Shown: positions 1 through 11,494 of the stretch, piece after piece | Layout of the letters: the number at the start of each line of letters is the position of its first letter | How positions within the stretch are numbered: the stretch's first letter is position 1 | Source of the DNA: Archangium sp. | GTDB lineage: Bacteria; Myxococcota; Myxococcia; Myxococcales; Myxococcaceae | Length of the DNA: 64,000 nt | Reading direction: 5' to 3' | Assembly (NCBI GenBank): GCA_030695565.1 | Contig: JAUYRZ010000105.1 | Span: 1 to 64,000, forward strand | The notes under the pieces: generated by a model | Database searches by the model: none | What the model saw: only the letters and a program-made list of their open reading frames with translations | Told to the model about the DNA's origin: nothing | Translations under genes and position numbers: made by a program

Positions 1-2
1 GG

Positions 3-83
3 TGCCTGCAGCCCGTATCCAACACCCGTGGCCGATGGAGCGCTTCGAACGTCACCACCAGCTGCAAGAGCCGAGTGCGGTAA
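3..83 (+). CDS. 3' end of an unidentified gene (partial)
   Basis: The frame starting at base 3 is open from the window edge to a TAA at 81-83 and encodes 26 residues ending in SNVTTSCKSRVR. Third codon positions are mostly G or C, as in the real genes here, whereas the other two plus frames look less coding-like. The two cysteines would fit a secreted protein. I cannot identify the family from so short a tail. It would be convergent with the lipoprotein gene ending at 197. Confidence 0.4.
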   Translation, partial: CLQPVSNTRGRWSASNVTTSCKSRVR

Positions 84-108
84 TTCCGCTCGCTCGGATC
101 CGTGCGGG

Positions 109-130
109 GGGCGGCCCGTAAGGGCCGTCC
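109..130. terminator. GC-rich hairpin between convergent genes
   Basis: A nine-base stem, GGGCGGCCC / GGGCCGTCC with one G-T wobble, closes a GTAA tetraloop. It lies between the end of the partial gene at 83 and the end of the minus-strand gene at 197, where a terminator is expected. No U-tract follows on either strand, so it is a candidate only. Confidence 0.35.
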
Positions 131-160
131 CTACCGCGACGGCCGTTTGGGCACCGTCCC

Positions 161-206
161 CGAGCCCCTCACCCGGCCTGCGGCCGACCTCTCCCCTCAG
201 GGGCTC
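161..206. repeat. dispersed CCCTCACCC/CTCTCCCC intergenic repeat, copy 1
   Basis: The arms CGAGCCCCT and AGGGGCTCG are inverted and enclose the core CACCCGGCCTG...GGCCGACCTCTCCCC. The core is nearly identical to a second copy near 54940-54975. The right arm overlaps the last codons of the minus-strand lipoprotein gene, so this copy may form part of that gene's 3' end. Confidence 0.6.
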
Positions 207-1912
207 GACTTGTTGCTCTGCGGCTGCACGGCGGGCAACACGACCTCGTACCTGCCACGGTCATCCGCGATCGACGTGCCCAGCAGGATCGAAGCAGGGC
301 GCCCCTCGACCGTCGTCACCCGGAAGAACCGCAGCTGAGAGTACGGCACCGGCTGCTGAACCGTGCCCGTGGCGCTCGTCACCGTGCCCGACACCGTGCG
401 GCCGAACGACAGCTCGACCGGCGTGAGCGCCTGAGTGGGGACCTTGAGGCCCGTCTTGTCGTCGATGACGGTCTTGATGGTCACCAGCCGGCTCGAGATG
501 GGCAGCTTCTCGCCCGGGGTGAACTCGAAGCGCCAGATGCCCGGATCGAGCGGCAACTCGAAGCTGCCGTCCTCCGCGGTGACGCTCTCGGCAGGCTCGA
601 CGGGCAGGGCCTTCAGGTCTTCCAGGGTGCGCGTCTCGGCCTGAAGCGTGGCGCGAACGGACACGCCCTTCGCTGCGTCCTTGCCACCGGGGCGCGTGAC
701 CGTGCCCTTGGCGATCAGCCGGTCATCGAGCGTGAAGCTCGAAGGCGTGAGCCTGCCGACGTTCTGGTTGCTGCCCGGCGTCCTGGTCAGCTTCACCGTC
801 ACCTGGCGCTGGCTGTAGGCGGCGCGGCTGCCCTTGGGCGGCACCACGGTCAGCTGGAAGCTGCCATCAGAGCGCGAGCCCAGCGAGCTGACCCTGAAGT
901 CACCGGTCGCGTTGGTCTCGACGATCTTCGAGCGGAACGTGCCGTCGCCCACCACGGTGCCCTCGAGCACCACCTGCGCGCCCGCCACGGGGGTGCCCTG
1001 GCTGTCGAGAATGGTTCCTTCCACGTCGGCCGGTTCACCGAAGTCGCCGTATTCCAGCGAGACGGCGGTGGCCACCTGGGCCTCGACCACGAAGCGTTTG
1101 GTGGGAATCGGCACGCCCGGCTCGCGGGGCGAGGCGACCAGAATCACGTGTGTGCGGCTGCGTGCTTCGGGGCTGACCGTGATGGCGAACTCACCGGTGC
1201 CGCTCATGGGAAACCGCTGCGAGAGCGGTTGGTTCGTCTGCACGTCGAAGAGCTGCAGATCGACTCCATCGGCGACGGTCAGCAGCACCGGCTCAGGGGG
1301 AATCAGCGTGTTGTCGACCCGCTTGACGAGCTGCCCGCTGATGGCCGGAGCGCCATCGACCGCGGGGAACACGAAGGTGAGGGTGGGGTACATGCTGGGC
1401 ACCTGCACGTTGTTCATCACGGGGGGCACGGTGCGATCGCTGGGGATCGCGGTGAGCGTGTAGCTGCCCGCGCCCACCCGCATCTCGAACGAGCCGCGCT
1501 CGGGGCTGGCGAAGCGCTCTTCATAGACCCGCGAGATGCCCGGCAGGAGCATGCTCTGGCCCACGGCACGCACCACCACCGCCTCGGTGTACGAGGTGCG
1601 ATCGAGCGGGTTGCTCGACGTGGAGCGCTCCCGCTGGAACTCGCCGCTCACCGACAGGGGGCCCTCGAGGGGAAAATCGTAGACCGCGCCGAGCGTGCCC
1701 GGCTCGAGGGGAAAGTCACGCGCCAGCTGCCCGTTGAGCGCGCCGCCTTCGATCTCCACCACGATGTTCTTGCCTGGGTCACCACACCCTTCGGCAAAGC
1801 AGAGCTGCCCTGAGTCACACTGCTCGTTCGAAGTGCAGCTGGCCACGGGCCCGACGTAGGAGGTCGCGCAGGCACTGAGCAGCAGAAGCAACGTGGCGGG
1901 AAAGTGCCTCAA
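197..1912 (-). CDS. secreted lipoprotein with carboxypeptidase-regulatory-like repeats
   Basis: This 571-residue protein begins with a lipoprotein signal (MRHFPATLLLLLSAC) that predicts lipidation at Cys15. A short Cys-rich stretch (CTSNEQCDSGQLCF) follows. The rest is a chain of beta-sandwich-like segments with the pattern VEGTILDSQGTPVAGAQVVL and VSGTVTSATGTV, typical of carboxypeptidase-regulatory/SpaA-like Ig-fold repeats. It has no enzymatic motif. The start codon overlaps the stop of the gene upstream (1909-2508) by four bases, so the two lipoproteins are probably co-translated. A surface role is inferred; the partner is unknown. Confidence 0.75.
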   Translation of the reverse strand: MRHFPATLLLLLSACATSYVGPVASCTSNEQCDSGQLCFAEGCGDPGKNIVVEIEGGALNGQLARDFPLEPGTLGAVYDFPLEGPLSVSGEFQRERSTSSNPLDRTSYTEAVVVRAVGQSMLLPGISRVYEERFASPERGSFEMRVGAGSYTLTAIPSDRTVPPVMNNVQVPSMYPTLTFVFPAVDGAPAISGQLVKRVDNTLIPPEPVLLTVADGVDLQLFDVQTNQPLSQRFPMSGTGEFAITVSPEARSRTHVILVASPREPGVPIPTKRFVVEAQVATAVSLEYGDFGEPADVEGTILDSQGTPVAGAQVVLEGTVVGDGTFRSKIVETNATGDFRVSSLGSRSDGSFQLTVVPPKGSRAAYSQRQVTVKLTRTPGSNQNVGRLTPSSFTLDDRLIAKGTVTRPGGKDAAKGVSVRATLQAETRTLEDLKALPVEPAESVTAEDGSFELPLDPGIWRFEFTPGEKLPISSRLVTIKTVIDDKTGLKVPTQALTPVELSFGRTVSGTVTSATGTVQQPVPYSQLRFFRVTTVEGRPASILLGTSIADDRGRYEVVLPAVQPQSNKSSP

Positions 1913-2508
1913 TTGCAGGGCACCACGTCGAGGGTCCAGGTGAACGTGTCGAACGAGCCCTTGTCGACTTCGATGCCGCCGTCGGGGAGCTCGACCTGCG
2001 GGCCGGGGCGGGGCTCGAGGGTGAGCTTTCCGTTGATCACTTCTTCGAAGTTGGTGTCAGCCACGTAGGCCGTGAGGGTCGCCGTGCCGGTGCGCAGGTC
2101 GGCCAGCGCGCTCTTGAACCCCAGCGCACTCGGGGCGGTGACGGTGCGGTTGACCGACGTCCCACCCGGCACCGAGGTCGGGGTGAACGGCGTGCTGGTC
2201 GTGCTGCCGATGAACCACCGGCTGTGGATGCGGTCGCCCACGTCCTCGTCCTCCACCGTCAGCGAGAAGACCGGGTTCCGATCAGGGCACATGGTGCTGT
2301 TTCGGAAGGTGGTGCGAGGCTCGGGCAAACTCTGAGCGACGATGCGGAGGGCGCCGTTTCGTTTGGGAGGGAGCGTCGGGATCACTTCTTCATCCTGAGG
2401 AAACAGGCAGCCGACCATCGGCAAGCACGTCATCCCCATGAGCAACAACCCGGCCATGGCAGGCATGCCCCTCGCCCCCTGTAATGTCGGCCGCTTAGTC
2501 ATTGTCAC
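1909..2508 (-). CDS. hypothetical lipoprotein
   Basis: This 199-residue protein has a basic N-region, a hydrophobic stretch (MAGLLLMGMTCLPMVGC) and a lipobox ending in Cys34, so it is predicted to be a lipoprotein. The mature part is mostly beta-like and ends ...FTWTLDVVPCN. I recognise no catalytic motif or family. It overlaps the sigma54-activator gene by four bases (2505-2508) and the next lipoprotein by four bases (1909-1912), placing both at the end of the pfkA-pkn4 transcription unit. Its function is unknown. Confidence 0.7.
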   Translation of the reverse strand: MTMTKRPTLQGARGMPAMAGLLLMGMTCLPMVGCLFPQDEEVIPTLPPKRNGALRIVAQSLPEPRTTFRNSTMCPDRNPVFSLTVEDEDVGDRIHSRWFIGSTTSTPFTPTSVPGGTSVNRTVTAPSALGFKSALADLRTGTATLTAYVADTNFEEVINGKLTLEPRPGPQVELPDGGIEVDKGSFDTFTWTLDVVPCN

Positions 2509-4385
2509 GCCTCTTCGTACTCTGTCTCGGATGGCATGGTTCCCTCTGCGCGTTCACCCTCCAACTTCTCCAGATGCCTGAAGATGGTGCGCGGATCGAC
2601 CCCCAGATCCTTGGCGGTCTTGGTGCGGTTGCCGTTGTTCCGCTCCAACACTTCGTTGATGTACCGCTTCTGGAACTCTTCCTTCGCCTGGGCCAGCGCG
2701 AGGATGGGCGGCAGGTTTTCAGGCCGCAGGTCGAGGTCTTCGGGCCCCAGCAGCGGCTTCTCGCACAGCACCACCGCCTTCTTGATGCGGTTCTCCAGCT
2801 CGCGAATGTTGCCCGGCCAGTTGTACTTCTTCATCGCCACGATGCTGGCGGGCGTGAAGCCGCGGGCCTTGCTGTCGAACTCCTTCGAGTAGCGATTCAA
2901 GAAGAACTTCGCGAGCACCGTGATGTCGTCGCCACGATCGCGCAGGGGCGGCAGCTTGAGCGTCACCACGTTGATGCGGAAGTAGAGGTCTTCGCGGAAG
3001 GCGCCCTTGCGGGTCTCTTCTTCGAGGTTCTTGTTGGTCGCCGCCACCACGCGGATGTCGACGGGCTCGGGCCGGTTGTCGCCGACCTTGTAGACGACCT
3101 TTTCCTGCAGGGCGCGCAGCAGCTTGACCTGCAGCTGCAACGGCATCTCGCCGATCTCATCGAGGAAGAGCGTGCCGCCGATGGCCGCCTGGAACTTGCC
3201 CATCTTGGTGGCGACCGCGCCGGTGAACGCGCCCTTCACGTGACCGAACAGCTCGCTCTCGAGCAGGTTCTCGGGGATCGCGCCGCAGTTGATCGAGATG
3301 AACGGCCCCTTGGTGCGCGGGCTGTGGCGGTGGAGCTCCTTGGCGATCAGCTCCTTACCAGTGCCCGTCTCACCGATGACGAGCACCGAGATGTCGGTCG
3401 GCGCGATCTTGTCGATGCGCTTGTAGACGTCTTTCATGCCCTGGCAGGCGCCGACGATGTCGCCGTAGGTCTGCTCCTCGAGGCGCGTCTTGAGGGTGGT
3501 GTTCTCGAGCTTGAGCGTGTTGACCAGCAGCGCGTTCTGCACCAGCAACGAGGCCTGCGCCGCGAAGATGGTGAGGGTGTCGAGCGCCTTCTGATCGAAG
3601 CGGTTCACCAGGCGATCGTTGCCCAGGTAGATGAGCCCGAACAGATCCCCCTTCATCATCAGCGGTGCGCACATCACCGACAGCAGCTTCAAGTTCACCA
3701 CCGACTCCGAGCTGTTGAACTCGGGGTCATCGAGAGCGTCGGCGATGATCAACGCTTTTTGCTGCGCAACCACCTTGTTCACGATGGAGTCCGACACCCG
3801 CTCCAGCGCGTCTTCGATGGTCTCGCGCTGCACGTTGCGGGCGACCTTCACGCGCAGCTGGTTGCTCTCCATCAAGATGAGGAAGCCCTTGTCGGCGCGC
3901 GCCACCTCGATGCACTCGTCCATGAGCGACTCGAGCAACCGATCGATGTCCGTGCTCGAGAGCAGGCGCTCCGAGAACGAGGTCAGCCTGCGCAGCGCCG
4001 AGAGCTCACGGCCGGGCACACCGGGCTGCTCCTGGGTCGAGGCGTCGGGATCTTTCGAGTCGTTGCGGGTGAAGCGGGTGGCGAGCGCGGGCTGCGCCAT
4101 CGGGGCTTCGGCAGAAGAGAAGGTCAGCTCGGTGTCGCCCACGCGCACCACGTCGTTGGTCTTGAGCTCGGCCTCGTCGGTCGACTTGCCGTTGACCTGG
4201 AACTTCGACTCGCCGCCGACCTTGTACGAGATGCCGTCGAACATGATCGCGAAGGCCGTCTCGGGCACCCGCGTGTCTTCCAGCACGATGTCGTTGTCAG
4301 CGCTCTTGCCGAGGCTGGTGATTCGCTTGAGGAGCGTCACCGAGCGGGTCTTCCCGTCCGGCGTTTTGATGGTGAGGCTGGGCAT
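2505..4385 (-). CDS. FHA-GAF-sigma54-interacting transcriptional activator
   Basis: A 626-residue bacterial enhancer-binding protein. Residues 1-95 form an FHA-like domain, about 140-290 a GAF domain, and about 310-550 the AAA+ sigma54-activator domain with Walker A GETGTGKE (338-345), the sigma54-contact loop GAFTGA (385-390) and Walker [12 protein letters not shown] (403-413). A Fis-type helix-turn-helix ([20 protein letters not shown]) lies near the C-terminus. It should activate sigma54 promoters in response to a signal sensed by FHA/GAF; there is no receiver domain. The FHA domain lacks the usual SRxH phosphothreonine-binding residues, having RVPETAF at that position. The gene sits 18 bases after the membrane-protein gene and two genes below the Ser/Thr kinase, a plausible input. 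Its target genes are not evident. Confidence 0.93.
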
Positions 4386-4403
4386 CGAAGTGCTCCTGGA
4401 TTC

Positions 4404-5345
4404 CTAGAAACCGATGGTGACCCCCGCGCCGAGACCGCCGGGCGTGGGGTAGATCTTGAAGTGAGCCGTAGGGGCCTTCGGAGCGGGTACACGAGGCTCC
4501 CTGGTCTCGGTGGTGATGCTGTCCTGGTGGTGCCAGATCGCGTCGCCGACCCCGATGGCCCACAGGGCGTAGAAGGCGATGCCGGTGCCGTATTTGAGGC
4601 CTGTCCACACCGCCGCTTCGGTCTTCCGATCAGCCGGAATCTGCCGCACGCGAATGGTGAAGGCGGGCCCGAGGCGATCGGTCCAGGTGTAGGGCACCTC
4701 GACGAAGAGCGACTCGATGGCGAAGTACGAGACGATGCTCAAGACCGCCATCAACGCTTCTGACGCAGCGAAGGCCGCGCCCCAGCCCGGGCGATCCTGC
4801 TGAAACTGCCCCGCCCCGAAGGGGATGAAGTTCACCAGCATCGAGCGCTTCTCGATGGTGCGCACGGTGACGTCGTTGGTGAGCTGTTCGGTCTTTCGGC
4901 GCCGATCTTCCTGCTCCAGGCGCAGCCGCTCGCGCTCGGCGGCGGCCCGCTTGTCCTGATCGATGCGCAGGGCGATCTGCTGGCGCACCAGGTTGAGCGC
5001 GTCTGCGTTCTCCTTGCGCACGACCTCGAACACCTTGATCGCCGACGGCGGCACCGCGAACGGGTCGAGGATGTAGTCGGGGTTGACGCGCAGCAGCTGA
5101 AGGAAGGCGCTCTGCGCACCCTTCTGATCGTTCAGGTTGAACGCCGACAAGGCGGCGATCTCGTGCAGCCGCACCCGTTGCGGATCAGAGAAGTTCGCCA
5201 GCGCCAGTGACTCGTTCGCGCGGCGCGCGGCCTCGGCGTACTTGCCGGTGTCGTAGAGCGACTGAATGATCTCCACCTCGCGCTCAGGCACCACCTGCGC
5301 GAAGGCAGGGAAGGCGACCAGGATCAGGATCAGCCAATTCTTCAT
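4404..5345 (-). CDS. secreted/membrane protein of the pkn4 operon
   Basis: A 313-residue protein with a signal peptide (MKNWLILILVAFPAFAQ). Next comes an alpha-helical TPR-like region (about 20-90, YDTGKYAEAARRANESLALA), then a charged coiled coil (about 125-155). A C-terminal part has one or two membrane segments (AAFAASEALMAVLSIVSYFA; GIAFYALWAIGVGDAIW). The phrase PFGAGQFQQDRPGWG resembles the small DUF5683-like membrane proteins often linked to TPR regions. It overlaps pkn4 by four bases (ATGA). A supporting role at the envelope is inferred; the function is not known. Confidence 0.75.
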   Translation of the reverse strand: MKNWLILILVAFPAFAQVVPEREVEIIQSLYDTGKYAEAARRANESLALANFSDPQRVRLHEIAALSAFNLNDQKGAQSAFLQLLRVNPDYILDPFAVPPSAIKVFEVVRKENADALNLVRQQIALRIDQDKRAAAERERLRLEQEDRRRKTEQLTNDVTVRTIEKRSMLVNFIPFGAGQFQQDRPGWGAAFAASEALMAVLSIVSYFAIESLFVEVPYTWTDRLGPAFTIRVRQIPADRKTEAAVWTGLKYGTGIAFYALWAIGVGDAIWHHQDSITTETREPRVPAPKAPTAHFKIYPTPGGLGAGVTIGF

Positions 5346-7132
5346 GGCTCGATCACCAGCGGTTTGCCCGGTGCCGCGTACTTCACCCCTTTGCCCACGA
5401 TCTCGCCGCCCACGCTGACCGTGTACTCGATCTTGTGGCGCATCTCAGGGTTGCCGGAGGGCGGGGTGAATTGGCGGAAGGGCGTGACCTGGGACTCCTT
5501 CACCGTCTTCTCGATCGCACCCACGCGCACCTTCGCGTCGTCGGGCCAGCCCTGAAACGAGACGAGCGACGGCTTGAGCGGCGCCACCAGGGGGATCTCG
5601 TCGCCCTTCTTGCTGATGTCGATCGTCACGCTGCGGCCCTGCGTCTCACAGAGATCGCAGGTGACCGTGAAGCGGTGGGGCCCGGGCGGCAGCTTGATCA
5701 CGTGGCGGGCGAGCGCGTCGACGCTGCGCGGCCCGTCGTCGACCTGCAGGTACCCGAAGGGCCGAACGATCAACGCGACCTCGAGCAACTCCACCGTGGG
5801 CCGGGGCACGTAGGTCTTCACTGGCATCGGGAGCGGCTTGACCGGCTCCACCCCCACCGGCGGGTCGCTCTGGGGCGGGTCCACCTTGATCGGCTCGGGG
5901 AGCCGCGGCCAGGCCACGCTGGCCAGCGTCACGTCGGTGGGGGCGAGGGCGAAGTGATGCACGAACGGCAGGGGCCGCAGCGCGACGCGCACGCCCTGAA
6001 TCGCGCTCATCGCCACGATGAAGGCAGCGCCGCCCATGAAGGCGAGCCGCCGCATGCGTTTGACCCGGGCTTCGCGCTGTTTGCGCGCGCGCATCTGGCC
6101 CAGCAGCTCGTTCGCGCGCGAGTTCGACGGCTCGTGCGCCAGCACCTGGTTGAGCGCCGACATCGCCTTGGCCGATTTCTTCTCGGCGATCGACTTCTCG
6201 GCCTGGGCCAGCAGCGCCGAGGTGATGCGCGGCGTGAGCTCTTTGCGGTAGCCGCGCGGCTCGAGGAAGAACTTCGTCAGCTCTTCGTGCGGGCGGGTGA
6301 GGCCGACGGTGGCCAGGTAATCGGCGAGCGCGTCACGCAACTTCGCAGCGGTCGGAAAACGATTGGCCGGCTGGCGCTGCAGGCAGTTGCCGATGATCTC
6401 CGCCAACTCATCCGAGACGGTGGGCACCACCTGCCGCGGGTCGTCGTACACGCAGTCAAGGATCCGCTTGAGCGTGGCGGTGGTGTTGGGCGCGACGAAC
6501 GGCAGCTTCCCCGTGGCGAACAGGTACAGCATCGTGCCGAGCGAAAACACGTCGGCTTCTGCGCCGGCTTCTTCGCCTTCGATGATCTCCGGGGCCATGT
6601 GCGCGGGGCTGCCCACCAGCGCGCCGGTCATGGTCATCTTCTCATCGCGGTCCAGGATCTTCGCGATGCCGAAGTCCATCAGCTTGAGCAGGCCGTCTTC
6701 ACGCACCATCACGTTCTCGGGTTTGAGATCGCGGTGGAGAATGCCCGCCTCGTGCGCATGGGCGAGGGCCGAAGCGAGCTCGTGCACCACCATCGCCGCG
6801 ACCTCCGGCGGCTGGAGCGCCTCTTCGGTGATGAACTGCCGCAGCGTCTGCCCGCGGATGTACTCGGTGACCAGGAACGCGTCGGCCGCCGTTTCGCCGG
6901 AGTAGTCGAACACCTCGAGGATGTTCGGGTGATGCAGCCGGGCCACCGCCTTCGCTTCACGCTCGAGGCGCTTGCGAGACTCGGCCCGGCCGGCGAGGTG
7001 AGGGTGCAGCACCTTGACCGCCACTTCGCGGTCCAGCGTCGTGTCGAGGCCCTTGTAGACGACACTCATCCCGCCCTGGCCGAGCTGCTCCAGGATCCGG
7101 TATCGCCCGATGTGACGGCCGACGAGTGACAC
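5342..7132 (-). CDS. pkn4: transmembrane Ser/Thr protein kinase, Pkn4-type
   Basis: A 596-residue Hanks-type kinase. It has the glycine loop GQGGMSVVYKG (18-28), catalytic Lys40 in VAVKVL, HRDLKPEN (133-140), DFG (153-155) and APE-like MAPEIIEG. After the kinase domain come a helical region, a basic stretch and one membrane helix (about 363-383). The extracytoplasmic part is proline-rich with beta-like segments resembling PEGA domains. The GTG start follows the pfkA stop with no spacer. In M. xanthus, Pkn4 is encoded next to phosphofructokinase and phosphorylates and activates it; the same arrangement here supports the name, although orthology was not tested by alignment. Confidence 0.9.
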   Translation of the reverse strand: MSLVGRHIGRYRILEQLGQGGMSVVYKGLDTTLDREVAVKVLHPHLAGRAESRKRLEREAKAVARLHHPNILEVFDYSGETAADAFLVTEYIRGQTLRQFITEEALQPPEVAAMVVHELASALAHAHEAGILHRDLKPENVMVREDGLLKLMDFGIAKILDRDEKMTMTGALVGSPAHMAPEIIEGEEAGAEADVFSLGTMLYLFATGKLPFVAPNTTATLKRILDCVYDDPRQVVPTVSDELAEIIGNCLQRQPANRFPTAAKLRDALADYLATVGLTRPHEELTKFFLEPRGYRKELTPRITSALLAQAEKSIAEKKSAKAMSALNQVLAHEPSNSRANELLGQMRARKQREARVKRMRRLAFMGGAAFIVAMSAIQGVRVALRPLPFVHHFALAPTDVTLASVAWPRLPEPIKVDPPQSDPPVGVEPVKPLPMPVKTYVPRPTVELLEVALIVRPFGYLQVDDGPRSVDALARHVIKLPPGPHRFTVTCDLCETQGRSVTIDISKKGDEIPLVAPLKPSLVSFQGWPDDAKVRVGAIEKTVKESQVTPFRQFTPPSGNPEMRHKIEYTVSVGGEIVGKGVKYAAPGKPLVIEP

Positions 7133-8218
7133 TCAAACTCCGAATGAGATGCCGATTGCTTTGGCCAGCCGCACCTTGTCGCCGTGCGGATCGACCTGAC
7201 GTTCCTTGCGCGACTCGGCCAGTGGCGAGAAGCCCAGCTTTCCGTCGCGCAGGCAGACCATGTGGTCCCATTTTCCGTCGCGAATGAGGTCGAGCACCAT
7301 CGCGCCGTACATGGTGGCCAGCACCCGATCCATCGGGCTGGGGCTGCCGCCGCGCTGCAGGTGACCCAGCACGGTGACGCGAATCTCGGCCTCGATGTGC
7401 GGCGCGAGCAGATCGGCGAGCACCTTGCCTGAGCCGCCCAGCCGCACCACCCCGCGCCCGGGGATCTCGTCGGCCTGTTGCTGCACCGCCTGGTGGCCGC
7501 CCTTGGGGAACGCGCCTTCGGAGATGGCCACGATCGCGAACTTCTTCCGCGTCTCGTAGATCTCCTGCAGCTTCGCGACGATCTTCTCGACGTCGTAGGC
7601 CAGCTCGGGAATGAGGATGAAGTCGGCCCCACCCGCGATGCCGCCCTCGAGCGTGAGGAAGCCCGCGTTGCGGCCCATGATCTCGACCACCATCACCCGC
7701 TGGTGCGCCTCGGCGGTGGTGTGCAGGCGATCGATCGCCTCCGAGATCACGTTCACGGCGGTGTCGAAGCCGAAGGTCTGATCGGTGCCAGAGAGATCGT
7801 TGTCGATGGTCTTGGGGCAGGCGACCACCTTCACGCCGCGCTCCGAGAGCTTGTGCGCCATCGTCAGCGTGCCGTCGCCACCGATGCAGACCAGCCCGTC
7901 GAGCTTGAGCGCCTTGATGCGCTTGAGCACCACGTCGCTCATGTCTTTGGTGACCGTCTGGCCGCCTTCTTTCATCACGTAGGCGAACGGGTCGGCCTTG
8001 TTCGAGGTGCCGAGAATCGTGCCGCCTCTCGGCAAAATTCCGCGCACCTCTGCCATGCCCAGGGGCATCGTGAGGTCGGGAAGAATCAGGCCGTCGAAGC
8101 CGTTCTGGATGCCGACGAACTCGTACCCGAGCTCCATCACCCCGCGGCGAACCAGGCCTCGCAACACTGCGTTCAAACCTGGGCAGTCACCGCCGCCCGT
8201 CAGCACTCCAAGTCGCAT
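7133..8218 (-). CDS. pfkA: 6-phosphofructokinase
   Basis: A 361-residue phosphofructokinase of the group III type, phosphorylating fructose 6-phosphate in glycolysis. Motifs are GVLTGGGDCPGLNAV (4-18), GGDGT (114-118), PKTIDND (136-142), MGRNAGFL and GHLQRGGSPS. Gly at the GGDG position is the residue associated with ATP use; pyrophosphate enzymes have Asp there. Lys in PKTIDND is shared with actinobacterial ATP enzymes and PPi enzymes, so ATP is likely but not certain. It is the first gene of the run down to 197 and lies directly upstream of pkn4, whose M. xanthus counterpart activates this enzyme by phosphorylation. Confidence 0.96.
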   Translation of the reverse strand: MRLGVLTGGGDCPGLNAVLRGLVRRGVMELGYEFVGIQNGFDGLILPDLTMPLGMAEVRGILPRGGTILGTSNKADPFAYVMKEGGQTVTKDMSDVVLKRIKALKLDGLVCIGGDGTLTMAHKLSERGVKVVACPKTIDNDLSGTDQTFGFDTAVNVISEAIDRLHTTAEAHQRVMVVEIMGRNAGFLTLEGGIAGGADFILIPELAYDVEKIVAKLQEIYETRKKFAIVAISEGAFPKGGHQAVQQQADEIPGRGVVRLGGSGKVLADLLAPHIEAEIRVTVLGHLQRGGSPSPMDRVLATMYGAMVLDLIRDGKWDHMVCLRDGKLGFSPLAESRKERQVDPHGDKVRLAKAIGISFGV

Positions 8219-8344
8219 CTCAGCTCCGGCAAACGTGTCGGTGGGACACCGGAGCGTATGACAGCGCCGCCTGATGTTGCCAGCGCTTACTGACTGCGTT
8301 GTCAGGGCACTGTGGCGTGGTTGGCGTGGTGCTGCCTGACCCGC

Positions 8345-8791
8345 TCACCCCCGCTTGCGCGTGGTGATGCGATCCAACAGGTGCTCCAGCGTGCCTTCGT
8401 GATTCAGGCCGCCGCGGTTGGGGGCCGCGACCTGAGCGAGCTGAAAGAGCTCTGCCAGCCGCTCTTTCACCAGCTCCCAGTCGGGCCGGGCTTCCAGCAG
8501 CTGCCGATAGATGAGGATCGCCTCTTTGTACTTGCCCCCGGCCGCCAGGGCTTCGGCCTCGTGCATCGGCGTCTTGTGTTTGCCCGTCGGCTCGATGCGG
8601 CTCATCGCCACCCGGCGGCGCTCGGCGGGATCCAGACCCTGCTCGAGCTGCACCAGCCGGTCGGCGAGGAGCGCGTCTTCGGGAAACGCGCTGCACAGCC
8701 GCTCGAGCAGCGCGCGCGCTTCGGACAACTCGCCGCGCCGGACATGGCGTTCGACCTGCGTCTCCAGCTGCACCCGTTCGTCCTGCGTCAT
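8345..8791 (-). CDS. TPR-like hypothetical protein
   Basis: A 148-residue, almost entirely helical protein with two repeats resembling tetratricopeptide units (ELSEARALLERLCSAFPEDALL and GKYKEAILIYRQLLEARPDWEL). There is no signal peptide, so it is probably cytoplasmic and acts by binding another protein. It is 126 bases upstream of pfkA on the same strand, so it could share the transcript, but the gap leaves room for a separate promoter. It is divergent from the gene at 8852. Its partner is unknown. Confidence 0.7.
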   Translation of the reverse strand: MTQDERVQLETQVERHVRRGELSEARALLERLCSAFPEDALLADRLVQLEQGLDPAERRRVAMSRIEPTGKHKTPMHEAEALAAGGKYKEAILIYRQLLEARPDWELVKERLAELFQLAQVAAPNRGGLNHEGTLEHLLDRITTRKRG

Positions 8792-8851
8792 CGGCCTCTG
8801 GGCTCAGCACAGCAGAGCGAGTGATGGGAAACCAGTTACGCTGCTCGAACG

Positions 8852-9496
8852 ATGTGGAGCGCCGTCGTTCTCTTGCTGCTGAGCGCCGATCTGGGGCCGG
8901 TGCTGCGCCAGGACGGTTTTCAGATGAAGCCGCCCGCCACCTTCCGGATGGCGCGCATGGATCTTTTTCACGGCACCCAGGTGGGCACCATCGCGGTGAA
9001 CGCGTCGTCCACTCGCTACCTGAGCGCGGCCCTCGTCGATGGGGAAGGGGAGGACGCCGCGTCGCTGCTCATCTCGGTGGTGGAGTCGACCTTCTCTCTG
9101 GGGCCTTCTTCGCGCGACGAGCTGTCGACGGCGTCGGTGCGGCACCTGAGGGATGAGCTGGGTCAGTCGTTTCAACTCGAGCGCGCCGAGGTGACGAAGG
9201 GCCGGGTGCAGGTGATTGGTTCAGTGCGCCAGGGCAGTCAGCTGCGGCGCATTCTGGTTTCGGCCTGGCCAGGTGATTCGCGGCACGTGGTGGCCATCTG
9301 CAGCGTACCTTCGGGGCGGTGGGATTCACTCGCCCCAGTGCTGTCTGACAGCTTCGATTCGTTGCGGGTCGAGCAGGCGAGCTCCCCGCGGCCCTCTCAG
9401 CGATTGCTCTGGGCGTTCGCCGCCCTGGTCGCGGCGCTGATGTTGATCTCGATCGGGTTGTGGCGGCGCAGACAGGTGGCGAGGAGTGCAGGGTAG
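8852..9496 (+). CDS. membrane-anchored hypothetical protein
   Basis: A 214-residue protein with a short hydrophobic N-terminus (MWSAVVLLLLSADLGPVL). A soluble beta-rich domain follows, and a C-terminal membrane helix (about 186-203, LLWAFAALVAALMLISIGLW) is followed by Arg-rich RRRQVARS. The topology suggests an extracytoplasmic domain anchored by its C-terminus. No catalytic motif is visible. It is divergent from the TPR-like gene at 8791 and convergent with the protease gene at 9521. Confidence 0.7.
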   Translation: MWSAVVLLLLSADLGPVLRQDGFQMKPPATFRMARMDLFHGTQVGTIAVNASSTRYLSAALVDGEGEDAASLLISVVESTFSLGPSSRDELSTASVRHLRDELGQSFQLERAEVTKGRVQVIGSVRQGSQLRRILVSAWPGDSRHVVAICSVPSGRWDSLAPVLSDSFDSLRVEQASSPRPSQRLLWAFAALVAALMLISIGLWRRRQVARSAG

Positions 9497-9520
9497 GCGG
9501 CTGTAACTTCGCGGGTGAGC

Positions 9521-10978: not shown

Positions 10979-11494
10979 TCAAGGGGCGACGACGCTGACG
11001 ACCGAGGAGCCCAGCTCTTTGTCGCCGCGCATCACCTTGATGGTCCACTTACCGACCTTGTTGAAGTTCTCGCCGCGCCAACCGCGGGTGCGCCCGAAGC
11101 CGACCACCGGGTTGTCGACCGTCTTCCGCACCTGCCCCTCGTGCAAAAACTGGATGGACACGTCTTCGTACTTCCCGTCTTTCGGGCACAACCACTGCAG
11201 CCACGCGAAGACGGTGGTGCCCTTGGGCACCGACTCGCCCACCGGCTCGATGCACTGATATTGGGTAGGGCTGCCCTTGGTCGAGTCGACCTTCACGCAC
11301 GGAATCAGGTCGAGCAGCGCCGGGCCGCGATCCTTTCCGTTCTCCTGGTAGTCGAGGAACTTCTTGATCAGCTCGGCGCTGGGCGGCGGTTCGACCGGGC
11401 CCGTCGGGGCAGGGGCGGCAGCAGTTCCGGCGTCTTGAGCGAAGGCCAACGTGGCGAAAAGCAGTGCTGCAGCAGCGACGGTACGGCTCATCAT
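10979..11494 (-). CDS. secreted hypothetical protein
   Basis: A 171-residue protein with a clear signal peptide ([20 protein letters not shown]) and a low-complexity Ala/Pro linker. A compact beta-rich domain follows, containing three cysteines and the pattern [19 protein letters not shown], which looks Ig-like. The stretch [25 protein letters not shown] resembles DUF2914-type secreted proteins, but I cannot confirm this. It is divergent from lepA with about 100 bases between them. Function unknown. Confidence 0.7.

Follow-up and report, generated by a model that had tools for sequence, protein, structure and literature searches.

The closest described counterpart of the system considered here is the pfk-pkn4 gene pair of Myxococcus xanthus, in which MXAN_4016 encodes Pfk1 and MXAN_4017 encodes Pkn4 (pkn4 = pktD1; PMC2129111 and PMC3427377). 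Phosphorylation and activation of 6-phosphofructokinase (PFK) by Pkn4 in M. xanthus are cited in PMC2887360, PMC6213207 and PMC6791715. The Pkn4-PFK couple is a textbook case of a bacterial Ser/Thr kinase acting on a metabolic enzyme. An equivalent pair is found in Archangium sp. (assembly GCA_030695565.1, contig JAUYRZ010000105.1), in a stretch of 64,000 nucleotides (positions 1 to 64,000 of the forward strand), which is referred to below as the window. In this stretch, a membrane kinase gene (Hanks-type, membrane segment predicted) lies directly downstream of the 6-phosphofructokinase gene. Comparison of the locus across Myxococcota shows that the kinase is encoded together with a TPR protein (TPRm, predicted to be placed at the membrane) and a sigma54-dependent activator as one core, by gene order, linkage and conservation, and that PFK was deleted in several lineages while this core stayed.

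Other known systems share some properties with the locus. The membrane Hanks-type kinases of the PASTA class (PknB/Stk1 type) resemble the window kinase (NF033483, E 9.6e-88, residues 9-378), but the score of this match is 295.6 against a cut-off of 450, PASTA is not matched by Pfam, and the C-terminus of the M. xanthus kinase orthologue scores as PEGA. GarA/OdhI/FhaA signalling is comparable in the FHA fold (by profile), in the joint position of a kinase gene and an FHA gene, and in the link to central metabolism, whereas the FHA-like domain of the window is fused to a transcription activator and is devoid of the pocket Ser and His. The FHA-domain enhancer-binding proteins of M. xanthus, reportedly described by Jelsbak in 2005, combine the same FHA-like, sigma54 AAA+ and Fis HTH parts; the window activator differs from them by a GAF domain in between and by the absence of the canonical phosphothreonine triad.

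Mapping of the window proteins and their orthologues onto contig L083 of M. xanthus AM003 gave the order upTPR-pfk-kinase-TPRm-activator-LP1-LP2, the same as in the window. Named genomes were scanned with the C-terminal 52 residues of the activator, and the best 80 of 276 relatives were used. The identification of the locus as pfk-pkn4, made in a preliminary description of this DNA, agrees with the L083 order, the activator tree and the PFK tree, all of which make the window unit orthologous to the Pkn4 locus of M. xanthus. Because the activator and the lipoproteins stand beside pkn4 in M. xanthus too, they are no addition peculiar to this organism. The two loci differ in the pfk-kinase gap (18 bases in M. 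xanthus, none in the window), in the FHA Arg, which is replaced by Lys in the window activator, and in the residue aligned with Thr226 of the M. xanthus PFK, which is discussed below. The window features are as follows.

8345..8791, minus strand: upTPR, small TPR protein (148 amino acids) without a hydrophobic segment, a conserved upstream neighbour
8219..8344, minus strand: leader of the unit, from the sequence and a DNA alignment of upstream regions
8227-8224, minus strand: ribosome-binding-like GGAG before pfk
8218-7133, minus strand: pfk, 6-phosphofructokinase of 361 amino acids, ATG start, stop TGA at 7135-7133, optional member of the unit
7141-7138, minus strand: ribosome-binding-like GGAG of the kinase, within the last pfk codons (from the sequence)
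7132-5342, minus strand: Pkn4-type Ser/Thr kinase of 596 amino acids, GTG start at 7132 (sequence and Pfam)
5345-4404, minus strand: TPRm, TPR/membrane protein, ATG start, 4-base overlap with the kinase gene
4385-2505, minus strand: FHA-like/GAF/sigma54 AAA+/Fis HTH activator of 626 amino acids, 18-base gap after TPRm
2508-1909, minus strand: LP1 lipoprotein, GTG start (alternative start ATG at 2502), 4-base overlap with the activator gene
1912-197, minus strand: LP2 lipoprotein, TTG start, carboxypeptidase-regulatory-like domain, 4-base overlap with LP1

The six-gene minus-strand unit proposed earlier, with its coordinates and spacing, is thus recovered from the sequence, and its two lipoproteins correspond to LP1 and LP2; the third gene, TPRm, encodes no lipoprotein and has no lipobox. 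The gene order is seen again in M. xanthus and many family genomes, which places it beyond chance. The kinase GTG (7132) abuts the pfk stop (7133) with zero gap and its ribosome-binding-like site lies inside pfk, so translation of the two genes is probably joined. In many family-f1 loci, the upTPR gene precedes pfk or, if pfk is missing, the kinase gene; given the 126-base gap, it probably does not belong to the same translation unit as pfk.

The extent of the core was determined in 127 genomes of the order, with limits of E<=1e-105 for PFK, E<=1e-75 for the kinase and E<=1e-155 for the activator. The kinase was found in 112 genomes, the activator in 114 and PFK in 62; kinase and activator occur together in 109 genomes, and in 95 of these they share contig and strand and lie within 4 kb of each other. 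A survey of the phylum comprised 155 genomes, 106 of the order and 49 outside it. Among the latter, the kinase is present in 31 and the activator in 33; of the 30 that possess both, 21 have them linked (1.0-2.2 kb between matches). Where a fetched locus carries kinase and activator on the same strand with the kinase upstream, the TPR gene was matched as well, in 105/105 cases (a few contigs enter this count twice). Matches to LP1 come mainly from family f1; those to LP2 reach further and are weak. For counts of spacing, promoters and motifs, 13 or 14 duplicate-contig loci were removed by hand, and a few duplicates may remain; the paralogue L003 was excluded by a score threshold from the activator residue counts and the activator tree. 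Since poor synteny is otherwise reported for myxobacterial kinomes in PMC2887360, such wide retention is unusual. The preliminary description, in which pfk-pkn4 was regarded as extended by further genes, holds in that the sigma54-activator and lipoprotein genes do travel with pkn4 and are conserved beside it in relatives; its emphasis is reversed, as the core reaches wider than the linked pfk, which comes and goes.

Among 96 genomes of the family, PFK was found in 69 and the kinase in 89: 66 genomes have both, 23 the kinase only, three PFK only and four neither. Contigs begin inside the kinase gene in two "neither" genomes (G066 and G114) and in one kinase-only genome (G018), and some assemblies are incomplete. 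When both genes are present in genomes of the order, they adjoin on one strand in 56 of 59 cases, with 3-42 bases between match ends; the remaining cases are explained by contig ends in G004 and G129, while in G030 PFK and kinase are apart. Presence of PFK varies inside single genera. In genus g16 it is found in G126, G129 and G190 and is missing from G020, G088, G091 and G097, and in genus g5 it is missing from G119 and found in six genomes. Wherever the DNA fetched for a PFK-less locus was long enough, the TPR and activator genes are still present. The HRD and DFG motifs are intact in 39/39 kinases without pfk and in 36/36 with it, and the kinase match of the PFK-less G008 contains an internal stop. 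The frequent absence of PFK where the kinase is kept makes it unlikely that PFK is the only purpose of the kinase.

Seven PFK-less family genomes (G007, G011, G012, G013, G016, G020 and G022) possess another PFK elsewhere, 42-44% identical to that of the window; glycolysis therefore need not rely on the linked pfk. This second enzyme was considered as a Pkn4 partner and rejected, since no kinase orthologue adjoins it in four loci (L022-L025). A further PFK homologue of the genome from which the window comes (G000:C47:64042-64967) occupies two frames whose matches overlap by four bases, as a split gene or a frameshift. The PFK-only genomes G043, G103 and G123 are reduced (2.1-2.7 Mb), and kinase and activator were not found in them at the set limits. 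In their loci (L126, L127 and L128), pfk stands beside the gene of P171, without upTPR, kinase, TPRm, activator or lipoproteins around. P171 is an exported-looking protein whose gene lies upstream in the window (10979-11494, minus strand) and stays close to the unit in some members of the family.

The direction of change can be read from scars at the junction. A quick activator tree (n=104), in which 74 sequences have a known PFK state, requires seven changes, and parsimony counts alone cannot separate gain from loss of pfk. The G007 sequence immediately before the kinase ATG is ATGCGACTGGGAGTGCTGACGGGCGGCGGGAGCTTCGGCGACTGA, a mini open reading frame (mini-ORF) composed of the first 10 and the last 4 pfk codons plus a stop; its MRLGVLTGGG is identical to the start of the window's pfk, and its SFGD is that of the M. 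xanthus pfk end. Upstream regions of 22 PFK-less loci were compared with 29 reference pfk genes, and 150 dinucleotide shuffles served as the control in each case. The pfk 5' end persists in the four g16 genomes without PFK and in G007; the 3' end persists in G007, G097, G022, G186 and G187 (0/150 shuffles as good in each case), G097 being a g16 genome that keeps both ends. Clear in-register remnants are thereby present in 8/22 regions (L029, L134, L133, L166, L031, L030, L169 and L170). Three further regions (L027, L129 and L171) hold weak, rightly placed matches, for which 11, 102 and 11 of 150 shuffles were as good, and no in-register remnant was found in the other 11 of the 22 (L026, L142, L028, L135, L144, L032, L037, L167, L168, L172 and L173). 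The 5' matches of L026 (inside upTPR) and L030 (in the leader) reached 0/150 each; being out of register, they were counted as chance. The best local match of L134 begins within pfk, and the upstream DNA alignment extends this remnant to the start codon; in L029 and L134, the remnant stop overlaps the kinase ATG. A tblastn search of PFK against 39 PFK-less upstream regions gave E values of 1e-8, 7e-5 and 1.9e-4 for three g16 genomes. Because the start, the end or both parts of pfk lie directly upstream of the kinase in eight PFK-less genomes, PFK was lost there, not gained. In a quick tree, a single clade (SH-aLRT 95) holds the kinase-linked PFKs of families f1 and f6, the PFKs of the reduced genomes and the unlinked PFK of G030, which sits on a long branch; this agrees with a single origin of the linked gene.

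A separate case is L176 (contig of L091, metagenome-assembled genome PMG_225), where pfk lacks 124 bases near its 3' end in comparison with L090 and is out of frame before the kinase. Either a loss at an early stage or a fault of the assembly may underlie this.

Pfam matches above cut-off were obtained for PFK (E 1.3e-96), Pkinase (1.2e-55), Sigma54_activat (9e-72), GAF, the Fis-type HTH and the LP2 domain; the TPR match of TPRm was below cut-off, and LP1 had no Pfam match. The kinase has an N-terminal catalytic domain with VAVK, HRD and DFG, and a single hydrophobic segment near residue 363 is predicted by hydropathy; its C-terminal region scores as PEGA in the M. xanthus orthologue. TPRm has a signal sequence (AFA-Q, by inspection). 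Its structural model (mean pLDDT 87, pTM 0.48) contains TPR-like helices at about 20-112, a long helix at 114-156 and further long helices at 186-212 (hydrophobic) and 238-271 (less hydrophobic). The fold search with TPRm returned mostly TPR proteins as top matches, none at E<=0.001, and suggested no mechanism. LP1 has a lipobox with Cys34 and a mostly conserved PQD; Cys34, Cys74 and Cys198 are invariant in 23/23 aligned sequences. The window activator carries an AAA+ sigma54 domain with Walker A and GAFTGA and a Fis-type HTH, which defines it as a sigma54 enhancer-binding protein, and GAFTGA is present in 99/105 activators, so that the sigma54 machinery is intact.

The explanation considered reasonably probable is that the kinase, the exported TPR membrane protein and the sigma54-dependent activator act as one pathway, with PFK as an accessory first gene. 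In such a pathway, a condition would be sensed by the envelope parts, namely TPRm, the C-terminal region of the kinase and, in this family, LP1 and LP2. The kinase would pass the signal inward, and the activator could convert it into sigma54-dependent transcription via its GAF and FHA-like domains. In the lineages keeping PFK, glycolytic flux may be under the control of the kinase as well, in line with the reports on M. xanthus. The joint retention of kinase and activator favours a transcriptional output of the kinase, which the preliminary description had raised. A more specific version is put forward tentatively, at slightly less than even expectation: Pkn4 might be the sensor half of an ancient Myxococcota operon (membrane kinase to TPRm to a sigma54 activator whose FHA domain is non-canonical), and PFK a secondary client whose gene was lost repeatedly by internal deletions tending to spare the start codon or the end, which carry the translation signals of the kinase.

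Several observations weigh against a common kinase-activator pathway. Kinase and activator lie on different contigs in 14/109 genomes of the order and in 9/30 outside it; in some of them the two genes may be truly separated. In six distant loci (L102, L112, L113, L115, L119 and L120), the activator occurs without a recognisable kinase orthologue, these loci having been fetched with at least 3.6 kb upstream. The FHA domain is devoid of the canonical set of phosphothreonine residues through which the kinase might reach the activator. As a group, four kinase knockouts of M. xanthus, including that of pkn4, showed higher fruA expression, which PMC3427377 regards as fitting the known regulation of fruA, not this activator; a transcriptional effect of Pkn4 is therefore not new in itself. 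Finally, no enrichment of sigma54 -24/-12 elements over single-base shuffles was detected in the 250 bases upstream of each unit gene. Near matches (expected numbers in brackets) were 1/53 (2.9) for upTPR, 3/51 (2.8) for pfk, 1/82 (5.2) for the kinase, 6/94 (5.7) for the TPR gene, 8/104 (5.2) for the activator, 1/59 (2.0) for LP1 and 2/81 (5.0) for LP2. The whole window contains 12 loose matches against 28.5 expected.

In an alternative explanation, the genes stay together solely via a shared promoter and leader, kinase and activator belonging to separate pathways. The empty search for a sigma54 target promoter, the non-canonical FHA pocket and the activators without kinase would suit it, and so would the gaps, which are short or overlapping at most unit junctions across the loci compared. 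In the leader, TGTCATA at 8263-8257 (minus strand) belongs to a stretch that, in the DNA alignment, is conserved before pfk where PFK is present and before the kinase where it is absent. Within the Myxococcus-like group of the family, the sequence before pfk can be aligned with the sequence before the kinase of PFK-less relatives, and the alignment runs through a TTGCAC..TACAAT-like pair as well as CTGTCATA and CTGACACCCGCGTCCGAC. Where pfk is gone, the kinase thus seems to be served by the former pfk leader, which supports joint expression, and the TGTCA..TGACA halves within it could represent an operator. Within window positions 1-9500, neither a terminator-like site on the minus strand nor a sigma70-type promoter was found. 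Against the alternative stand the wide retention, set beside the poor synteny reported for the kinome, and the joint loss of kinase and activator in G043, G103 and G123, which kept PFK. The alternative is accordingly considered unlikely, with a minor share of the probability.

Slightly less probable is the classic interpretation, according to which PFK is the main kinase substrate and the unit serves to link glycolysis to a signal, the genes further downstream being mere passengers. The phosphorylation and activation reported for M. xanthus and the adjoining position of the two genes wherever both occur, with few exceptions, speak for it. It is opposed by the 23 of 89 kinase-bearing family genomes without this PFK (one of them the G018 case), by their retained catalytic motifs and TPR and activator genes, and by a kinase-activator linkage that extends far past the range of the linked PFK.

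The phosphosite also provides little help to this interpretation. The phosphorylated residue is presumably Thr226 of the M. xanthus PFK, as given in a 2002 paper, and Thr is indeed found at position 226 of this protein. In the corresponding column of 40 distinct kinase-linked PFKs, Thr occurs in 19; seven, including that of the window, have Ser or Thr one residue away, and 14 have neither. The window PFK has Glu in this column and Thr one residue later, while Thr is kept in 3/3 reduced genomes that have no kinase. The M. xanthus phosphosite was therefore rejected as the explanation of the linkage. Either the site in PFK moves, or other sites matter, or control of PFK is limited to some lineages. 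Given the Glu, it is uncertain whether the activation of PFK by Pkn4 can be carried over to the window organism. Gly in GGDG marks the ATP type of PFK and Asp the PPi type. The window PFK is of the GGDGT plus PKTIDND type, and TIGR02483 (PFK_mixed) is barely over its cut-off (432.8 against 430.55). GGDGT is present in it and in the linked PFKs listed, yet together with the Lys of PKTIDND, and the phosphoryl donor is thus uncertain.

A comparably low probability is assigned to a GarA-type mechanism, in which the FHA domain binds a phosphothreonine of the kinase, and the kinase thereby directly recruits or activates the activator. The FHA-sigma54 activator named in the preliminary description is substantiated, the sigma54 domain by Pfam and the FHA fold by profile match. 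The Pfam FHA model PF00498 was not matched at E<=0.01, and the N-terminus matches PF16697 (Yop-YscD_cpl); its profile matches solved FHA domains (FhaA/TB39.8, GarA, EmbR and OdhI; best E 2.9e-9), with a gap at the canonical TNG loop. The canonical phosphothreonine pocket of FHA domains consists of Arg, Ser/Thr and His. At these positions in 104 activators, Arg occurs in 73, Ser in one and His in 14, and all three in none. The common Arg and a [ST]xxH motif located about two residues later than the canonical place in 57/104 could be taken in favour of phosphothreonine binding. The window activator has Lys, Pro and Ala in the pocket and no shifted His, and direct phosphothreonine reading by it is thus doubtful. 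Phosphorylation of the activator, or protein contact via TPRm, is a possible route instead.

Insertion of PFK beside the kinase more than once, with PFK-less genomes primitive, could be suggested by the restriction of linked PFK outside f1 to f6 among the order's families (in the loci fetched) and by the blindness of parsimony counts to direction, but it is very improbable in view of the single PFK clade and the remnants at the exact junction. Within the family it is refuted for the four g16 genomes as well as for G007, G022, G186 and G187, though not for the 11 remnant-less regions or the base of the order.

The kind of locus is already known, and the change is one of emphasis: kinase, TPRm and activator are constant and PFK is variable. 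A 2008 study reportedly noted synteny of the pkn4 region, and the gene order may already stand there. In the literature covered (subscription papers being mostly outside coverage), no account was found of pfk deletions at the pkn4 locus or of the activator as a core partner. For the Pkn4-associated proteins MkapA/B/C as unit members, PMC6458408 yielded only strain mentions. If the constant partners of Pkn4 are TPRm and the sigma54 activator, with PFK as a dispensable rider, work on Pkn4 should seek a regulon. The genera g16 and g5, whose members differ in the presence of pfk, provide a natural experiment, and the mini-ORF scars allow a direct test of the translational coupling of pfk and kinase.

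Two observations concern the sequence records. Corallococcus-type contigs (L070, L074, L082, L088, L136 and L137) end inside the kinase gene. Its repetitive proline-rich linker may break assemblies, so that short-read surveys could miss the kinase together with pfk. The locus on L087 is typical of Myxococcus, although its record bears the title Comamonas sp. KCTC 72670; this record seems to be misnamed or contaminated.

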